In this document: one piece after another, positions 8,092 to 16,100 of the stretch
Numbering within the stretch: position 1 is the stretch's first letter
How the letters are laid out: each line of letters opens with the position of its first letter
Assembly (NCBI GenBank): GCA_945872815.1
Contig: CAMCAY010000022.1
Coordinates: forward strand, 1-33,478
From: Chitinophaga pinensis
GTDB lineage: Bacteria > Bacteroidota > Bacteroidia > Chitinophagales > Chitinophagaceae
Direction of reading: 5' to 3'
DNA: 33,478 nt
Position numbers and translations under genes: made by a program
Notes under the pieces: generated by a model
The model's input: only the letters and a program-made list of their open reading frames with translations
Databases searched by the model: none
Told to the model about the DNA's origin: nothing

Positions 8092-8460
8092 ATGAAAAGA
8101 TTGTCATTAGTAGCTATCATGCTATGCACTATTTTATTTAGTCAACAATTATATGCTCAAACAGCTAAATCAGAAACCATTAAAGTGTGGGGAAACTGTG
8201 GTATGTGCAAGAAGAGAATTGAAAAATCCGCAAAATCAGCCGGTGCCATCACTGCTTCATGGGATGCTGAAAAACTTGAACTGCAAGTAACTTTTGATGA
8301 AAATCAAACAAGCAGTATAAGCATACAACAAGCCATTGCCAATGCTGGATATGATACACAGGATATTACAGCGGATGACAAAGCTTATAATAAATTGTCA
8401 GGATGCTGTAAATATGATCGTAAAGCGCCAATGCCTTCCATTATTAATTCAAACCATTGA
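8092..8460 (+). CDS. Exported heavy-metal-associated (HMA) domain protein
   Basis: The protein of 122 residues has a signal peptide (1-23, ending LYAQ) and one HMA fold. The metal site is GNCGMCKKRIE with C36 and C39 (CxxC), and IANAGYDT near 82-89 is the typical end of the domain. A short tail carries an adjacent Cys pair (GCCKYD, C105-C106). HMA domains bind Cu(I) and similar soft metals through the CxxC. An exported single-domain form suggests periplasmic metal binding or handover. It overlaps nothing, and its stop is 2 nt before the next ATG, implying coupled translation. Confidence 0.88.
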   Translation: MKRLSLVAIMLCTILFSQQLYAQTAKSETIKVWGNCGMCKKRIEKSAKSAGAITASWDAEKLELQVTFDENQTSSISIQQAIANAGYDTQDITADDKAYNKLSGCCKYDRKAPMPSIINSNH

Positions 8461-8462
8461 AG

Positions 8463-9008
8463 ATGAAGAAAATTATTATTGCCTTAATTATTTGTATTTC
8501 TTTTGCGTCACAAGCTCAAATAAAAACAGTTACTATTCAGGCAAGCGGACTTACCTGCAGTATGTGCAGTAACTCTATCAACAAGGCATTGAAGTCAATT
8601 CCTTACATTGATAATGTTGTTGCCAATATTAAAAATTCAACTTTTGAAATAAATTTCAAATCAACCAGTGATATCAGTTTTGATTTGCTTAAAAAGAAAG
8701 TAGAAGACGCGGGTTTTTTTGTTGCCAAAATGGAAGTGAATTTGCTTTTTGAGAATGTAAAAGTAGTCAATGATGAACATGTGGAACTAAACGGCACGAT
8801 GTATCATTTTCTGAATGTTCCTGAAAAAGTATTGAATGGTTATCGTACAGTTCGAATTTTAGATAAAGGATTTGTTTCTTCAAAAGAGTATAAAAAGAAT
8901 CAAAAATATACGGCCATGGATTGCTATCGAACAGGTGTTATGGGAGCTTGTTGCAATAAAAAACTAAAAACATCCGGAACAAGAATCTATCACGTAACTA
9001 TTTCCTAA
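8463..9008 (+). CDS. Exported HMA-domain protein with Cys-containing C-terminal region
   Basis: The protein of 181 residues has a signal peptide (1-19, SQAQ), an HMA domain (about 20-90) with the metal site GLTCSMCSNSI (C32, C35), and a second region of about 90 residues. That region ends in DCYRTGVMGACCNKK (C154, C163, C164) and matches nothing I recognise. I chose ATG 8463 over the in-frame TTG at 8457 because the latter lies inside the previous reading frame's last codons and adds only two residues. The shared CxxC domain plus C-terminal CC pair suggests it and its upstream neighbour are diverged duplicates acting on the same metal. A terminator follows. Confidence 0.87.
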   Translation: MKKIIIALIICISFASQAQIKTVTIQASGLTCSMCSNSINKALKSIPYIDNVVANIKNSTFEINFKSTSDISFDLLKKKVEDAGFFVAKMEVNLLFENVKVVNDEHVELNGTMYHFLNVPEKVLNGYRTVRILDKGFVSSKEYKKNQKYTAMDCYRTGVMGACCNKKLKTSGTRIYHVTIS

Positions 9009-9067: not shown

Positions 9068-9883
9068 ATGAAGAAACAAATGTTTTTTTTAATTTTTATT
9101 ATTTCATTTTCCTATCAGGCAAAAACACAGGAATTGTTTGTTTTTACTGAGCCTGCCAGCAATATGGCGAAGGGTAATATTGGATTCAGATTATCCAATT
9201 CATTCATGAAGGAAAAAAATACCGGAGATATTAATGTTCATATTTTTCCCGAAATCATGTTCGGTATTTCAAAAAAAATTATGATACATGGCGAGGCTTT
9301 TGTATCCAACAGAAATAAATCCATGGCAGCTGAAGGCGGTTCATTTTACATGAAATATCGTTTTTACAGTCATGATGAAGTGCACAGTCATTTCAGGATG
9401 GCACTATTTACCAGAATGGCTTGGAATAATAGTGAAATTCATCAGGACGCGATTGATTTAAACGGACTTAACTCAGGAGTGGAGCTGGGGACAATTGCAA
9501 CTAAATTGATTCATAAAGTGGCAGTTTCATCTTCAGTTTCTTCTCTCTTTGCTGCAGATAATATCAATCAAACATGGATGGATGGTGCTGAACCAGACAG
9601 AAATGCTATGAATTATACTTTATCTTTTGGAAAGTTGATGTTACCCAAGGAATACGTAAACTATAATCAAACCAATTTGAATGTAATGCTGGAATTGCTT
9701 GGGCAAATCAATTTAACAAGTGGTAAATCATTTTTGGATCTTGCGCCCTCTGTTCAATTTATTGTGAAAAGCAAATCAAGATTTGATGTTGGATATCGTT
9801 TCGCTGTGTCCAATGATTTAGAAAGAACTTCACCTAATGGTGGCTTTTTTAGATTTGAGTACAATATATTCAATGCGTTTTAA
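9068..9883 (+). CDS. Predicted outer-membrane beta-barrel protein of the metal cluster
   Basis: The protein of 271 residues has a signal peptide (1-21) and then alternating hydrophobic/polar segments throughout, such as GNIGFRLSNSF, SFYMKYRFYS and RFDVGYRFAVS. It ends FFRFEYNIFNAF, a C-terminal aromatic consistent with barrel assembly. Several His and Met residues lie in putative loops (HDEVHSHFRM, EIHQD). I do not recognise a named family. The position after the HYC_CC_PP and HMA genes suggests a role in metal handling or export across the outer membrane, which is inference. It converges with the next gene 37 nt away, with no clear terminator between. Confidence 0.75.
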   Translation: MKKQMFFLIFIISFSYQAKTQELFVFTEPASNMAKGNIGFRLSNSFMKEKNTGDINVHIFPEIMFGISKKIMIHGEAFVSNRNKSMAAEGGSFYMKYRFYSHDEVHSHFRMALFTRMAWNNSEIHQDAIDLNGLNSGVELGTIATKLIHKVAVSSSVSSLFAADNINQTWMDGAEPDRNAMNYTLSFGKLMLPKEYVNYNQTNLNVMLELLGQINLTSGKSFLDLAPSVQFIVKSKSRFDVGYRFAVSNDLERTSPNGGFFRFEYNIFNAF

Positions 9884-9920: not shown

Positions 9921-11105
9921 CTACTTTTCAAAATAAGCAATTGTTCCGCCCACCCAGGTTTGGTTTTGATTATATCTAGTTCCAATCATTTTTCCTTTGC
10001 TGAGTCTGGCAAGATTATGAACAGCAATGGGTCGTGGCCATCCTTTTTTTCTGAAATAAAACAATCTGATCTCTGCTTTTGCAGGCTCGTCGGGTGTATC
10101 AATGATAGAAGCATATTCCACTTTTCTCTGAAGAATCCAATTTTCAGGATCACTGATAGAATCAATTGAGTCTTGTGTAACGTCAATAATGACGCCCATT
10201 CCTGCATAGGAAAAAAGGGGCTTTAAAACAAATTCATCGAAATTTACCGGTTGTTTAAGTTCGTTCAAAAAATAAGTCTCAGGTATAAATGGATGTTGTA
10301 AATAGGGTAAAGTGTATTTGCTGATTCTGTAAAACCAGTTGGGATGAGGAATCCATTCAACTTGGTATTTTTTATTTACATCTATGTATTTTTTAAGTTG
10401 ATCTTGTTCCAGGTCATCGAAAATAATTCTATTGAATATTTTATCGATTTTTATTTTACTTCCATTCCGGTTGTAAAACAAAGAATCATTTTCTGCTATT
10501 ATTGAACTGATGCATACTGTCGGGATTCCTAAAATTGATTCCGTGCATTTGAAATCTATGAACGTTTTTTGTTTTTCCGGAAATGCTTCGAGTAGAATTA
10601 CATTTTCGGGATTGTTTTCTCCAATGATGATTTCTTTTAAAAGTTGCACATAAGTTTCCTTATTATAGCCGTTTAAATAAGAATCGAAATTGTCTGGGAT
10701 AGAAGCGTAATCAGTGGTTAAGCTGTTATTAAGTATTTGAAATCCGTACAACGAAGGGAAGCCCTGCATTTCAATCAGTTGAGGAACAATATTACCCTGG
10801 TCATCCTTGCAAACACCAAAATCAAACACCATCATTTCACAATCATTTTCATCATTTGAAATATGATATTTTGAAGGGATGCTTTGATTTGTCAGGGATA
10901 TGAAATCTTTGTCAAGGATAAAATCTATTATATGCTCACAGGTATCCAGCATATTTATTTTAAAATCTTTGGGAATAAAAATAGGTGTTTCTGCAATTCT
11001 GAATCCTGATTTGCAATTTGTTATTTCCTCAAATCGACGAATATAATCCTCGTATTTTTTTTCTGTAAAATTGCTATTGAATTTTTCCCTGATTGAGTGT
11101 ATCAT
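9921..11105 (-). CDS. Uncharacterised, probable circularly permuted ATP-grasp ligase
   Basis: The protein of 394 residues has no signal peptide, and I cannot name the family. ATP-grasp signatures are visible but in permuted order. A metal-site-like block comes first (VFDFG with D95, then LIEMQGFPSLYGFQ with E112 and Q114, resembling the Asp...ExN motif). Next is ENVILLEAFPEKQKTFIDF (167-185) and a Rossmann-like middle. Near the C-terminus are the nucleotide elements: KPLFSYAGMGV (295-305, Lys plus Gly-rich loop), WILQRKVEY (323-331) and EIRLFYF (345-351). In ordinary ATP-grasp enzymes the Lys/Gly loop precedes the metal motif; the order seen here is that of glutathionylspermidine synthetase and the PF14403/PF04174-type proteins. 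ExN is changed to ExQ. It starts 6 nt after its partner's stop, so the two are co-translated. Likely a carboxylate-amine or amide-forming ligase; the substrate is unknown. Confidence 0.7.
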   Translation of the reverse strand: MIHSIREKFNSNFTEKKYEDYIRRFEEITNCKSGFRIAETPIFIPKDFKINMLDTCEHIIDFILDKDFISLTNQSIPSKYHISNDENDCEMMVFDFGVCKDDQGNIVPQLIEMQGFPSLYGFQILNNSLTTDYASIPDNFDSYLNGYNKETYVQLLKEIIIGENNPENVILLEAFPEKQKTFIDFKCTESILGIPTVCISSIIAENDSLFYNRNGSKIKIDKIFNRIIFDDLEQDQLKKYIDVNKKYQVEWIPHPNWFYRISKYTLPYLQHPFIPETYFLNELKQPVNFDEFVLKPLFSYAGMGVIIDVTQDSIDSISDPENWILQRKVEYASIIDTPDEPAKAEIRLFYFRKKGWPRPIAVHNLARLSKGKMIGTRYNQNQTWVGGTIAYFEK

Positions 11106-11111
11106 AACATT

Positions 11112-11942
11112 TTACATTTCTTTATTTAAATTTTCATAGGTGGTTTGTAAAAATGCAGGAAGGATAGTCGCATAGGTTTGCATTATTTTGTCAGTGTCAT
11201 TTAACTGCCGAATCATTGATTCCCATTTTTCCCTGCCATGGTTTTCAATCACCATATTTTTCTTTTCATCAGAAAGCAAATATTGTATCATCCCGTGAGG
11301 ATCTGCTTCAGCATGGAATTGTGTCCCAACCATATAATCATTGAATTGAACTGCCATGATAGCTCTTTCATAAGGTACATGCGGTCTCTCTTTTTCAATT
11401 GCAATAATTTTTGCACCCATTTGATTCATCAATGCTTCATTTGGTTGAATTACTTGATAATCACGATGGTCAACAGCGTAAAAAGGATTACTAAGTCCTT
11501 CAAAAATAAATGGAGGTTTGTCGTTTACAAAATGAACCGGAAATACCCCGAACGATGTACTTTTTCTTTTATTGACATGCGCTATTTTAAAATACCTGCA
11601 TGCCAATTGAAAGGAATGGCATATAAAAAAAACAGATTTCTTTTTTACATTGTTTTTATTGTAATCAAGTAAATCAGTTATCCACTTAAAATAATTTTTT
11701 TCCCATGCTGTATCGGCACTATCAATCGGACTTCCGGGACCTCCGGAGGAAATATAAATGTCAAAGTCCAAAGAAGGGATGTTATTTGATAACCTTACTT
11801 CATATTCTTTGGTTTGAATAGCTATATTGTTCTTGAGAGAGAATTGTTGAATAATCTCTCTAAGGCAACGCATTCCCTGATTTTCAGTCCCTTCATAAAG
11901 GTCTAAAATGGCAATTCTGATTTCTGGATTGTACATACTCAT
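11112..11942 (-). CDS. Class I glutamine amidotransferase-like protein
   Basis: The protein of 276 residues carries a GATase1 core: oxyanion-strand SGGPGSP (66-72), nucleophile segment FFICHSFQLA (105-114) with C108, YAVDHRDYQVIQP (155-167), and the His/Glu pair in GTQFHAEADPHG (H210, E212). The Cys-His-Glu triad is therefore complete. The nucleophile elbow, normally GxCxG, has lost both glycines (F-I-C-H-S). An extension of about 60 residues after the triad (220-276) is not part of the minimal domain. Such proteins release ammonia from glutamine or cleave gamma-glutamyl bonds (GGP1/PuuD type). The co-transcribed ATP-grasp-like gene suggests a joint pathway. ATG 11942 is used; an ATG two codons downstream (11936) is equally possible. 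A weak -7-like TAAATTAG lies 7 nt upstream on the minus strand. Confidence 0.85.
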   Translation of the reverse strand: MSMYNPEIRIAILDLYEGTENQGMRCLREIIQQFSLKNNIAIQTKEYEVRLSNNIPSLDFDIYISSGGPGSPIDSADTAWEKNYFKWITDLLDYNKNNVKKKSVFFICHSFQLACRYFKIAHVNKRKSTSFGVFPVHFVNDKPPFIFEGLSNPFYAVDHRDYQVIQPNEALMNQMGAKIIAIEKERPHVPYERAIMAVQFNDYMVGTQFHAEADPHGMIQYLLSDEKKNMVIENHGREKWESMIRQLNDTDKIMQTYATILPAFLQTTYENLNKEM

Positions 11943-12007
11943 TAAGGCACTAATTTACCGATTTTAAACGAAGGAATGAATGAAAATTCAATCAGCCAAT
12001 TGTTTAT

Positions 12008-12015
12008 TATCTTCG
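12008..12015 (+). promoter_or_regulatory. -7-like element of rimO
   Basis: TATCTTCG differs from TAnnTTTG at one position. It ends 8 nt before ATG 12024 and lies downstream of the in-frame ATG at 11976, supporting the shorter RimO. Confidence 0.5.
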
Positions 12016-12023
12016 CCATTGAT

Positions 12024-13340
12024 ATGAAGACAAAAACCATTAAAAAAGACAAGGTCAATATTATAACACTAGGTTGCAGTAAGAACATGGTGGATAGTGA
12101 AGTACTGAGTGGTCAGTTGCTCGCCAACGATATTGAAACTGTACATGAAAATAATAAAAAAGACCACAATATTGTAATCATCAACACATGTGGTTTTATT
12201 GAGAAAGCAAAAGAAGAAAGTATCAACACTATTCTTGAAAATGTAAATCTCAAGAAGAAAGGAAAGTTGGATAAAGTTTTTGTTACAGGTTGTTTAAGCG
12301 AAAGATACAAAGCCAATCTGGAAGAAGAGATACCTGAAGTAGATGCCTATTTCGGTACAATGGAGTTGCCCTTGATTCTTAAAAAGTTTGAAGCCGACTA
12401 TAAAGGAGAATTGATAGGTGAACGATTGTTAAGTACGCCCCAGCATTATGCGTATATGAAAATCAGCGAAGGATGCAATCGTACTTGTTCATTTTGTGCG
12501 ATCCCATTGATGCGCGGTACTCATGTAAGCAGAACAATTGAATCATTGGTGAAAGAAGCCGAAAGTCTTGTAAAAAGAGGGGTTAAAGAAGTGATGCTGA
12601 TTGCGCAAGAACTGACTTATTATGGTTTGGATATTTACAAAAAAAGAGCTTTGCCTGATTTGTTGCATGCATTGGCTGACGTAAAAGAGCTGGAATGGAT
12701 CAGATTGCATTATGCATATCCATCTAAGTTTCCAATGGAAATTATTGATGTGATGAAAGAAAGAGATAACATTTGCAACTATCTTGATATTCCATTACAA
12801 CATGCTTCCAATAATATGCTTAAAGCGATGAAGCGTCAGATTACCAGAGAAGAAATGGAAGATTTGATAGCTGAGATAAGAAATAAAATTCCGGACATTT
12901 GTTTACGCACCACTTTGATTACCGGCTTTCCTGGAGAAACAAGAGAAGATGTGGAAGAACTGAAAACATTTTTACAAAAAATGCGTTTTGACAGAGTAGG
13001 TATATTTACGTACAGTCATGAAGAGCAAACAAGTGCGCATGAGTTAGAAGATAACATTTCTCCCGAGGAAAAAGAAGCCAGAGCCCAGGAAATTATGGAT
13101 GTTCAGCAAGATATCAGTCTAGAAAAAAATCAGGAAAAAATCGGAAAGACGCTGAAAGTAATAGTAGATAGAAAAGAAGCAGGCCGATACATCGGCAGAA
13201 CAGCATTTGATAGTGTGGAAGTGGATAACGAAGTAATTATAAATGCAGATAAAAAATTAACCATAGGCGATTTCGTATATGTAAACATTACCAAGGCATT
13301 TGATTATGACCTTGAGGGTGAGGTTGTCAATAAAAAATAA
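12024..13340 (+). CDS. rimO: Ribosomal protein S12 methylthiotransferase RimO
   Basis: The protein of 438 residues is a radical SAM methylthiotransferase that modifies an aspartate of ribosomal protein S12. The N-terminal UPF0004 domain holds three cluster cysteines, C18 (TLGCSKNMVDSEV), C56 (NTCGF) and C90 (TGC). The radical SAM CxxxCxxC is C151, C155 and C158 (GCNRTCSFCAIP). A C-terminal TRAM-like region contains VIVDRKEAGRYIGR. LGCSKNMVDSE separates RimO from the tRNA enzyme MiaB. The start is placed at 12024 because the upstream ATG (11976) adds 16 non-conserved residues and precedes the likely -7 box. bshC follows directly. Confidence 0.95.
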   Translation: MKTKTIKKDKVNIITLGCSKNMVDSEVLSGQLLANDIETVHENNKKDHNIVIINTCGFIEKAKEESINTILENVNLKKKGKLDKVFVTGCLSERYKANLEEEIPEVDAYFGTMELPLILKKFEADYKGELIGERLLSTPQHYAYMKISEGCNRTCSFCAIPLMRGTHVSRTIESLVKEAESLVKRGVKEVMLIAQELTYYGLDIYKKRALPDLLHALADVKELEWIRLHYAYPSKFPMEIIDVMKERDNICNYLDIPLQHASNNMLKAMKRQITREEMEDLIAEIRNKIPDICLRTTLITGFPGETREDVEELKTFLQKMRFDRVGIFTYSHEEQTSAHELEDNISPEEKEARAQEIMDVQQDISLEKNQEKIGKTLKVIVDRKEAGRYIGRTAFDSVEVDNEVIINADKKLTIGDFVYVNITKAFDYDLEGEVVNKK

Positions 13341-13362
13341 ATACTTAATTATTCCGAATCAG

Positions 13363-14964
13363 TTGAATGTCAAATCAACATATTGCTCTTATGCAGAAAC
13401 GCAGGCCTTTTCAGCATTGGTGAATGATTATATTAATGATAGCAATTCATTGAAACCTTTCTTTGCTTTCGATCCTTCATTCGGCGGAATAAAAGACAGT
13501 GTAGAGGCAAGAAAAAAAAATCAACCCAACAGGGGGTTGCTTGTTTCGTGTATACAGGACAGTTATGGGAAGGTAAATAGCTCAGAAAAAGTAAAGCAGA
13601 ATATACAATTGCTCAAAAGTGAAAACACTTTTACTGTATGTGCAGCACATCAGCCCAATATATTTACAGGTCATCTTTATTTTGTTTACAAGATTGTTCA
13701 TGCAATAAAGTTGGCCGATGAACTAAACAAACAAATGCCTGAATATCATTTCGTGCCTGTATATTTCATGGGTAGCGAGGATGCTGATTTGAATGAGTTG
13801 GGTGAAGTGAAAATAAAAGATAAAATCTACAAATGGGAAACCAATCAGAAAGGTGCGGTAGGCAGAATGACAATTGATGAAGGGTTTATTAAGCTTATCA
13901 ATGAAATTTCGATTGAGTTGTCATCTGAACCTTATGGAAAAGAGACAATTGCTTTGTTAGAAACTGTATATAAGAAAGGCTTGACTATAGAAAAAGCAAC
14001 ATTCTCATTGGTAAATGAATTATTCGGTAAATATGGTTTGCTGATTTTTTTGCCGGATAACAAAACTTACAAGAACGAGTTTGCAGATATAATAGAAAAA
14101 GAGTTGTTTACTTCTTTTTCAAATAAATTATTACAACAAACTATTGCTAAGTTTCCTTTGGAATACAAGGTTCAAACAGGTGGGAGAGACATTAACCTGT
14201 TTTATTTGAAAGATGGTATTAGAGAGAGAATAGAAAAAACAGCAAATGGCTATGTAGTTGTGAATACTTCAATTCATTTTACAGATGCAGATATTAAAAA
14301 TGAAACAAAAAATTTTCCGGAAAGATTCAGTCCCAATGTTATTTTGAGGCCTTTGTTTCAGGAGAAATTATTACCCAATATTGCCTTCATTGGCGGTGGA
14401 GGAGAATTGGCGTATTGGCTTGAATTAAAGAATATATTTGATGCGTCTTCCGTTCCTTATCCGGTTTTATTTTTGAGAAATTCATTTTTAATTATTTCTG
14501 AAAAATTTAAAAAAGAGCTCAATGGCCTCTCTGTTTCATTTTTGGAATTATTCAAAGATGATGATGCCTTATTAGAACAATTGGTTGCTAAATTGTCAAC
14601 TAAACAGATACTACTCGATCAAGAAAAAAATGAATTTGTTCAATTATATCAAAATATTTCAACTACTGCTTCTTCCGTAGATACTACATTGGAAAAACAT
14701 GTGGAATCCCTCAAAATAAAGGCACTTAAGAGAATATCAATATTAGAAAAGAAAATGTTTAGAGCCGAAAAGAAGCAATTTTCAAAAGAAATTCAACAGT
14801 TATTGAATGTTAAAAATGAATTGTTTCCAAATAATTATTTACAGGAAAGAGTAGATAATTTGTTTACCTTTTATGCTGTTTATGGCCCCGCATTTATAGA
14901 GCAAATTTTTCATCATTCCCTTACAACAGAGCAAAAGTTTTCTGTTTTGGAAATTGAAAAGTAA
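13363..14964 (+). CDS. bshC: Putative cysteine ligase BshC (bacillithiol synthesis)
   Basis: About 533 residues, close to B. subtilis BshC (539). BshC adds cysteine to glucosaminyl-malate in the last step of bacillithiol synthesis. Recognisable blocks are AAHQPNIFTGHLYFVYK (against the usual TGxQ...GPLYxxYK), HFVPVYFMGSEDADLNE (against FWxASEDHDxxE) and IAFIGGGGELAYWLELK, plus a coiled-coil stretch near the C-terminus. An open frame extends to ATG 13300 inside rimO, but those residues are not BshC-like. The TTG at 13363 (reading M-NVKSTYCSYAETQAFS) matches the usual N-terminus and lies 22 nt after the rimO stop. The start remains uncertain between 13300, 13306 and 13363. bshA and bshB are not in this window. 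The stop codon is formed inside a tandem repeat. Confidence 0.9.
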   Translation: MNVKSTYCSYAETQAFSALVNDYINDSNSLKPFFAFDPSFGGIKDSVEARKKNQPNRGLLVSCIQDSYGKVNSSEKVKQNIQLLKSENTFTVCAAHQPNIFTGHLYFVYKIVHAIKLADELNKQMPEYHFVPVYFMGSEDADLNELGEVKIKDKIYKWETNQKGAVGRMTIDEGFIKLINEISIELSSEPYGKETIALLETVYKKGLTIEKATFSLVNELFGKYGLLIFLPDNKTYKNEFADIIEKELFTSFSNKLLQQTIAKFPLEYKVQTGGRDINLFYLKDGIRERIEKTANGYVVVNTSIHFTDADIKNETKNFPERFSPNVILRPLFQEKLLPNIAFIGGGGELAYWLELKNIFDASSVPYPVLFLRNSFLIISEKFKKELNGLSVSFLELFKDDDALLEQLVAKLSTKQILLDQEKNEFVQLYQNISTTASSVDTTLEKHVESLKIKALKRISILEKKMFRAEKKQFSKEIQQLLNVKNELFPNNYLQERVDNLFTFYAVYGPAFIEQIFHHSLTTEQKFSVLEIEK

Positions 14965-15086: not shown

Positions 15087-16100
15087 TTACATAACCATCA
15101 ACCCACATCCTCTAACATCACTGTTTTCCATTCTTCCGGTAATTTCAAAACTACCATCATGATATAACTTGCCATTATCATCGGTTGCGATAAAACTGCA
15201 GCTGTGAATGTTTACAAGGTCAATTATATTGACTACTCCTCTTTGGTATTTTTTTTCAGAAAAATCATTCTCTATTGTTTCTAGTGGATTGTCCTCGGCT
15301 CTCAATAATATCTTCATCCAGGGAGGGCAGTTGAATATGCCATTTCCTTTAGAATAGGCTTGTGACATAAGCTCAGTCATGCCATACTCTGAATGGATTT
15401 CATTTAATTCAAATTTTTCTTTTAAAATAGAGTGCATTAATTCTTTATTGATTTCTTCCCTTCTTCCTTTCATACCGCCGGTTTCCATAATGATGGTGTA
15501 TTTTAGTTGCATAGGAAATTGTTCCGCAAAATCAAGTAAAGCGTAGGAAACTCCAATCAATAATGTTTGTTGTTGATTTGATTCATTTTCCAGAATGGTT
15601 TCTTTCATTTTGCTGAATTCGTTCAGATAAAATCCACTTTTTGAATGGCCGCTTTTTTCTATTAATTGATTCACCATATAAACAAGTGAAGAGCCCTTTC
15701 TTTCCAAATAGGAGGGCAGTAAACCTAAAATGCAATAATCTTTAACATCCCCATAAAATTGTTCAAATGCAGCATTGAAACTTTTTTCATAAAGTGCAAG
15801 GTCTTTCACATAATGTTTGCTGGGAATTGTTCCAGTTGTTCCACTGCTCTCAAAGATGGCTTTTGGATTAAAATTATCCGATTTTATCTCCCTCGTTTTA
15901 AAAAACTGAATGGGTAAAAAAGGTATTTTTTGCAAGGAAGTTATCTTACCTGGTTCTATGTGTATAGCTTGACAATATTGTCGGTAGGTATCATTATGAT
16001 TGTATTGATAATGGAAAATATCAACGGCCAGTTGTTCAAAATTTTCTTTATTGCAGTTGAATATTTTGTCTGTTATCATATTGGAATTGAAATTCGTCAT
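15087..16100 (-). CDS. LuxE-family acyl-protein synthetase
   Basis: The protein of 337 residues belongs to the acyl-protein synthetase branch of adenylate-forming enzymes, which activate a carboxylic acid with ATP. It shows the P-loop-like FESSGTTGTIPSK (83-95), METGGMKGRREEI (a strand and turn before the A5 motif), and HSEYGMTELMSQAYS, the A5 motif that contacts adenine. In luminous bacteria LuxE passes fatty acyl groups to a reductase, but no luxC- or luxD-like gene is present here. The acyl substrate and acceptor are therefore unknown. The C-terminal DVRGCGLMVM ends close to the bshC repeat. An alternative start at 16079 (MITDKIF) is possible. A GCAAATTTGC palindrome lies just upstream. 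It diverges from the lipoprotein operon. Confidence 0.82.
   Translation of the reverse strand: MTNFNSNMITDKIFNCNKENFEQLAVDIFHYQYNHNDTYRQYCQAIHIEPGKITSLQKIPFLPIQFFKTREIKSDNFNPKAIFESSGTTGTIPSKHYVKDLALYEKSFNAAFEQFYGDVKDYCILGLLPSYLERKGSSLVYMVNQLIEKSGHSKSGFYLNEFSKMKETILENESNQQQTLLIGVSYALLDFAEQFPMQLKYTIIMETGGMKGRREEINKELMHSILKEKFELNEIHSEYGMTELMSQAYSKGNGIFNCPPWMKILLRAEDNPLETIENDFSEKKYQRGVVNIIDLVNIHSCSFIATDDNGKLYHDGSFEITGRMENSDVRGCGLMVM

Follow-up and report, generated by a model that had tools for sequence, protein, structure and literature searches.

Ligases of the GCS2 and ATP-grasp types use ATP to activate a carboxylate, which is then coupled to an amine, and G-x-C-x-G is the nucleophile elbow motif of class-I glutamine amidotransferases (GATases). 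Among the permuted ATP-grasp proteins, glutathionylspermidine (Gsp) synthetase (GspS), YgiC/YjfC and the glutathione (GSH) synthetases have the closest folds to the ligase described here, and E. coli YgiC is named 'peptide--spermidine ligase' in RefSeq. For the fungal ligase Cp1B, which with the eukaryotic-type glutathione/homoglutathione synthetases is one of the nearest known systems, the available part of the source gives R139 and N165 as catalytic residues (PMC12568646). In the accessible part of another report, a carboxylate-amine ligase of a different kind is adjoined by a GATase-like thiol peptidase in proteobacteria or by a gamma-glutamyl cyclotransferase in firmicutes (PMC2588565). 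We analyzed a stretch of 33,478 nucleotides from Chitinophaga pinensis (assembly GCA_945872815.1, contig CAMCAY010000022.1; hereafter the window). As a first-pass annotation of this DNA had described, it carries two minus-strand genes that are separated by 6 nt (11106..11111, from the stop of the first to the start of the second gene). The first open reading frame (ORF; 11112..11942) encodes GAT, a class-I amidotransferase/C26-like protein of 276 aa with a Cys-His-Glu triad, and the second (9921..11105) encodes GRASP, a predicted permuted ATP-grasp carboxylate-amine ligase of 394 aa. By analogy, we give about even chances to the reading that this pair belongs to an amide-ligase pathway working like the route from GSH to Gsp.

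The AlphaFold2 model of GRASP (mean predicted local distance difference test 82.5, predicted template modelling score 0.86) showed the permuted ATP-grasp fold of GspS, YgiC and eukaryotic GSH synthetase over the whole chain. All 23 Foldseek matches at E <= 0.001 were GspS-like, YgiC/YjfC or glutathione-synthetase-type proteins or Cp1B, and these data bear out the GspS-type fold that had first been read from motifs. By sequence, the window GRASP gave no Pfam match even at E <= 1 (including GSP_synth, PF03738), no NCBIfam match, and chance-level matches only in a search against the PDB. PF03738 matched 14 of 30 GRASP relatives at E <= 1 (best 5.2e-5), and at least 7999 database candidates matched GRASP at E <= 0.001 (7999/7999 among the matches listed), which speaks against a chance finding. 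For residue counts, 198 GRASP and 171 GAT sequences were aligned. These sets consisted of the 120 best database matches and of fetched-locus ORFs within a set length range; they contain repeat entries for some genomes and for the proteins of the window itself. It can be seen that D95, E112 and Q114 of the metal-site motif (D95, E112-x-Q114; residues 95-114, 10764..10823, minus strand) are identical in 198/198 sequences. The same holds for K295, G302 and G304 of the nucleotide loop V-L-K-P-L-F-S-Y-A-G-M-G-V (residues 293-305, 10191..10229, minus strand), with which the YgiC loop can be aligned. The Asp/E-x-Q motif and the Lys/Gly loop (295-305) noted in the first-pass annotation are thus invariant, and the metal and nucleotide residues of permuted ATP-grasps (Asp, Glu and loop Lys) are present as D95, E112 and K295. 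In contrast to YgiC/YjfC and GspS (PF03738; R100/D102 and E115/N117 in YgiC), GRASP lacks the R-x-D/E-x-N catalytic pattern when this is matched by eye rather than by residue-level structure alignment: Arg was found at position 93 in 0/198 sequences, and Gln stands for Asn in 198/198. Such a rebuilt catalytic centre would illustrate the extent to which an ATP-grasp of the GspS type can change and yet stay strictly conserved. We rejected the idea that GRASP is a dead enzyme, since its metal and ATP residues are identical in 198/198 sequences. In one genome (G125; locus L034, from 4579 onward, plus strand) the GRASP frame stays open far upstream and reaches 867 aa.

The triad of GAT (C108, H210, E212), which had been noticed in the window protein, was identical in 171/171 aligned sequences. 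C108 lies in the nucleophile elbow F-I-C-H-S-F-Q (residues 106-112, 11607..11627, minus strand), in which S110 and Q112 are also identical in 171/171, while residue 106 is F, L, S or M in the family. H210 and E212 lie in residues 206-212 (11307..11327, minus strand). The G-x-C-x-G elbow was found neither in the window GAT nor in the 171 aligned sequences; because Ser110 is kept in all of them, the loss of both glycines, which was correctly seen in F-I-C-H-S of this protein, is a family trait. A GATase-type GGPG loop was identical in 171/171, and GAT scored 32.0 bits against PF00117 (curated cut-off 22.8). A sequence search against the PDB gave no match at E <= 1. In fold, GAT is close to the gamma-glutamyl peptidase GGP1, but it differs from GGP1 and other class-I GATase-fold hydrolases in having a C-H/Y-S elbow instead of C-x-G; its hydrolase role is predicted.

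To quantify the linkage of the two genes, we used 296 genomes of the phylum Bacteroidota and 30 genomes of the window's genus, the members of which are related to each other. Presence in the phylum was called at 1e-5 for GRASP, at 1e-15 and 1e-8 for GAT, at 1e-30 for GCS2 and at 1e-20 for AG3 and CP10 (three genes introduced below); in the genus, 1e-20 was used for all genes, and absence means no match at the threshold. In the phylum, GRASP was present in 92 genomes, although its window copy falls into no Pfam or NCBIfam family; GAT was present in 70 and both in 55. The two genes were adjacent on the same strand in 40/55 genomes (25 genera, 10 families), with GAT first in 40/40. When the best 80 loci of a contig scan were inspected, GAT was directly upstream in 65 of the 76 with at least 1 kb of upstream sequence; the other 4 were too short. 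The genus counts were 27 for GRASP, 26 each for GAT and GCS2 and 20 for AG3 (20, 20, 20 and 14, respectively, in the 20 near-complete genomes). There, GAT and GRASP were adjacent in 25/26 genomes with both, the remaining one having them on two contigs, and chance neighbourhood was rejected on this ground. The neighbourhood survey that had been proposed at the outset thus supports a real pair; yet the condition that the first-pass annotation had named as refuting, unlinked genes in related genomes, was seen in 15/55 phylum genomes, including four from the family to which the window belongs.

The first-pass reading of the pair as a self-contained two-gene unit is not supported: it usually occurs with two further ligases, GCS2 and AG3, and GAT also pairs with CP10. 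Clustering of neighbours around chosen loci yielded recurrent genes, among them GCS2 (PF04107, E 8.6e-62; YbdK 1r8g, E 3.7e-66), AG3 (profile match to the D-Ala-D-Ala ligase 3r23, E 3.2e-4; a Pfam search of two AG3 members gave no match) and a PF00756-type esterase. These loci had been picked for contrasts and included some genomes twice, and rates were taken from the whole-sample phylum and genus counts instead. In the phylum, GCS2 was found in 103/296 and AG3 in 107/296 genomes. GCS2 was present in 87/92 genomes with GRASP and in 16/204 without it (Fisher 2e-51), AG3 in 88/92 and 19/204 (Fisher 1e-50; both values uncorrected for kinship), and 83/92 GRASP genomes had both. At least one of GRASP and CP10 was present in 107 genomes, of which 29 had AG3-GCS2-GAT-GRASP as one run and 15 had AG3-GCS2-GRASP as one run (9 with GAT elsewhere, 6 without GAT). 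When one contig-edge AG3 locus was left out, 17/29 testable loci had an esterase gene in the 1.5 kb upstream of AG3. In the genus, AG3 and GCS2 were adjacent in 19/19 genomes, and two (G311 and G323) had all four genes in one run. GRASP differs from YgiC/YjfC and GspS in that it lacks a fused amidase domain and is encoded with GCS2, AG3 and GAT. In the window's genome, GAT-GRASP and GCS2 (G000:C11:10812-11888) lie on different contigs. It thus seems that the larger set has been split here to give the two-gene unit; AG3 is missing from 6/20 near-complete genus genomes. The ORF directly before this GCS2 (L110, 9660-10685, plus strand) resembles, by eye, a class A beta-lactamase-type serine hydrolase.

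Both members of the pair can be exchanged. Each of the 70 GAT genomes has exactly one of GRASP and CP10, none both and none neither, and 15/15 GAT genomes without GRASP carry CP10 (about 450 aa; match to the putative glutathionylspermidine synthase 3n6x, E 7.3e-7). CP10 lies between AG3 and GAT in 14/15, and within the set of 107 genomes, 14 have AG3-CP10-GAT as one run. A direct profile comparison of GRASP and CP10 was not significant (probability 2.9, E 0.016); their putative common fold class is based on the separate link of each to 3n6x. The sole sample genome with both ligases (G137) has no GAT, and its CP10 match is the weakest. Conversely, GAT was absent from 37/92 GRASP genomes; that it had been missed through a narrow query was rejected, since a broader profile (E <= 1e-8) returned the same 70 genomes. 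In five of these 37 (G055, G093, G251, G255 and G271, from four families), an M29-peptidase-like gene lies between GCS2 and GRASP. Its product matches PF02073 (E 2.1e-17) and the aminopeptidase AmpS 1zjc (E 3.7e-5), and by eye its presumed metal ligands (Glu, Glu, His and His-x-Asp) look intact. From these swaps, a hydrolase working alongside a permuted ligase seems more likely than a subunit on which GRASP depends. They also hint at the division of labour among the enzymes and open the sequence of reactions to testing. The system of PMC2588565 is similar, as far as its accessible part goes, in that a carboxylate-amine ligase stands beside a GATase-like hydrolase that is replaced by an unrelated enzyme in other lineages; it differs in its ligase family, and that part names no ATP-grasp partner.

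In the proposed pathway, GCS2 (YbdK-like) would make a gamma-glutamyl or similar amide, which AG3, where present, may extend. GRASP would use ATP to turn a carboxylate of this small acid or peptide into an acyl phosphate, to which an amine would then be joined. GAT, through its Cys-His-Glu triad, would hydrolyze a gamma-glutamyl or related amide, so that either an intermediate is trimmed or the product is recycled, and would not be the ammonia source of GRASP. Fold classes, conserved catalytic residues, gene set, gene order and swaps are observed, and the reaction steps are inferred; such a route would mirror gamma-glutamylcysteine synthetase, GSH synthetase, GspS and Gsp amidase. The predicted hydrolase role of GAT is favoured because of the GAT-less GRASP genomes, the M29-like slot swap and the presence of CP10 in all 15 GAT genomes without GRASP. 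A more specific version, which we put forward tentatively and regard as doubtful, is a phylum-wide new conjugate pathway: GCS2, AG3 and the rebuilt ATP-grasp (Arg lost, Asn to Gln) would make a gamma-glutamyl-peptide amine, a functional analogue of Gsp, and a GATase-derived amidase would cut it, with modular swaps of the ligase (GRASP or CP10) and of the hydrolase (GAT, M29-like or neither). An amine conjugate, if this is what the gene set makes, would represent a novel type of small molecule or tag in bacteria.

Several observations weigh against the proposed amide-ligase pathway. AG3 had no match at 1e-20 in the window's genome, so that the four-gene set is incomplete there, and GCS2 without AG3 occurs in 5 more of the 20 near-complete genus genomes. 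In 24/107 genomes, AG3, GCS2 and GRASP are scattered over three loci. GCS2 is absent from 8/15 CP10 genomes that have GAT, and therefore the GAT substrate need not come from GCS2. No M29-like gene was found in the fetched stretch of the other 32/37 GAT-less GRASP genomes. On the protein level, the GGPG loop of GAT would suit a glutaminase too, MetA is as near to GAT in fold as GGP1, and GRASP, unlike Cp1B (R139/D141, E163/N165), lacks equivalents of the catalytic R139 and N165. Finally, YgiC itself reportedly lacks GspS activity, according to the available part of PMC12506659.

The first-pass annotation had offered two mechanisms, of which the ligase/hydrolase version fits better. In the other, a glutamine-fed amide synthetase, GAT would split glutamine and pass ammonia to GRASP (or CP10), which would convert a carboxylate to an amide. 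The position of GAT directly upstream of GRASP (40/55 in the phylum, 25/26 in the genus), the presence of a permuted ATP-grasp in all 70 GAT genomes, and the invariant triad and GGPG loop (171/171) with a PF00117 score above cut-off are all consistent with it. We consider it unlikely, however, because 37/92 GRASP genomes have no GAT and an M29-like gene takes its slot in five. In addition, GAT is located elsewhere in 15/55, its elbow glycines are replaced family-wide, and the closest folds of known chemistry (YgiC, GSH synthetases) take amines or amino acids. It is less probable still that GAT is a MetA-kind acyltransferase on a pathway intermediate and that the resulting ester or acyl group is the target of the neighbouring esterase: GAT scored far below the MetA equivalog and exception cut-offs of NCBIfam (26.2 vs 460.5 and 25.8 vs 495 bits), it has the GATase loop GGPG where MetA homoserine acyltransferase (PF04204; 2vdj) has T-G-A-P, and the M29-like gene in its place points to hydrolysis. 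Last, the gene set could tag or polyaminate proteins or peptides rather than make a free metabolite, with GAT or the M29-like protein taking the tag off. In favour of this, ATP-grasp-fold protein ligases exist (RimK among others), and the Pup ligase PafA is a relative of GCS2 (PMC2588565, accessible part). It is nevertheless hardly to be expected: the neighbours, examined down to a length of 70 aa, included no recurrent small gene, and several ligases together also suit small-molecule assembly.

Our searches of the open literature listed no paper on the AG3-GCS2-GAT-GRASP set. The available part of PMC8939145 does not mention 'circularly permuted', GCS2, COOH-NH2 or glutamine amidotransferase, and the terms sought are absent from that of PMC4431377. 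Iyer et al. 2009 reportedly surveyed amidoligase gene neighbourhoods, and that survey may already include the set.

Within the window, GAT-GRASP stands alone, because both flanking genes, RimO (11976-13340) and a 271-aa ORF (9068-9883), lie on the plus strand. The divergent starts of GAT and of the longest RimO ORF are 33 nt apart (11943-11975), and therefore the GAT-GRASP promoter must lie in or over the RimO start. Downstream of RimO follows BshC, a bacillithiol-forming enzyme (13300-14964, plus strand; TIGR03998, 390.4 bits). Judged from this gene, the Chitinophaga organism probably makes bacillithiol, and therefore the product of the gene set need not be its main thiol. A LuxE-like acyl-protein synthetase is encoded at 15087-16100 (minus strand; PF04443, E 1.9e-12), but against the LuxE model of NCBIfam its score stays well short of the cut-off (55.1 vs 550 bits). 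On the other side, two consecutive plus-strand ORFs (8092-9008) carry, by eye, heavy-metal-associated-like C-x-x-C motifs (CGMC and CSMC).
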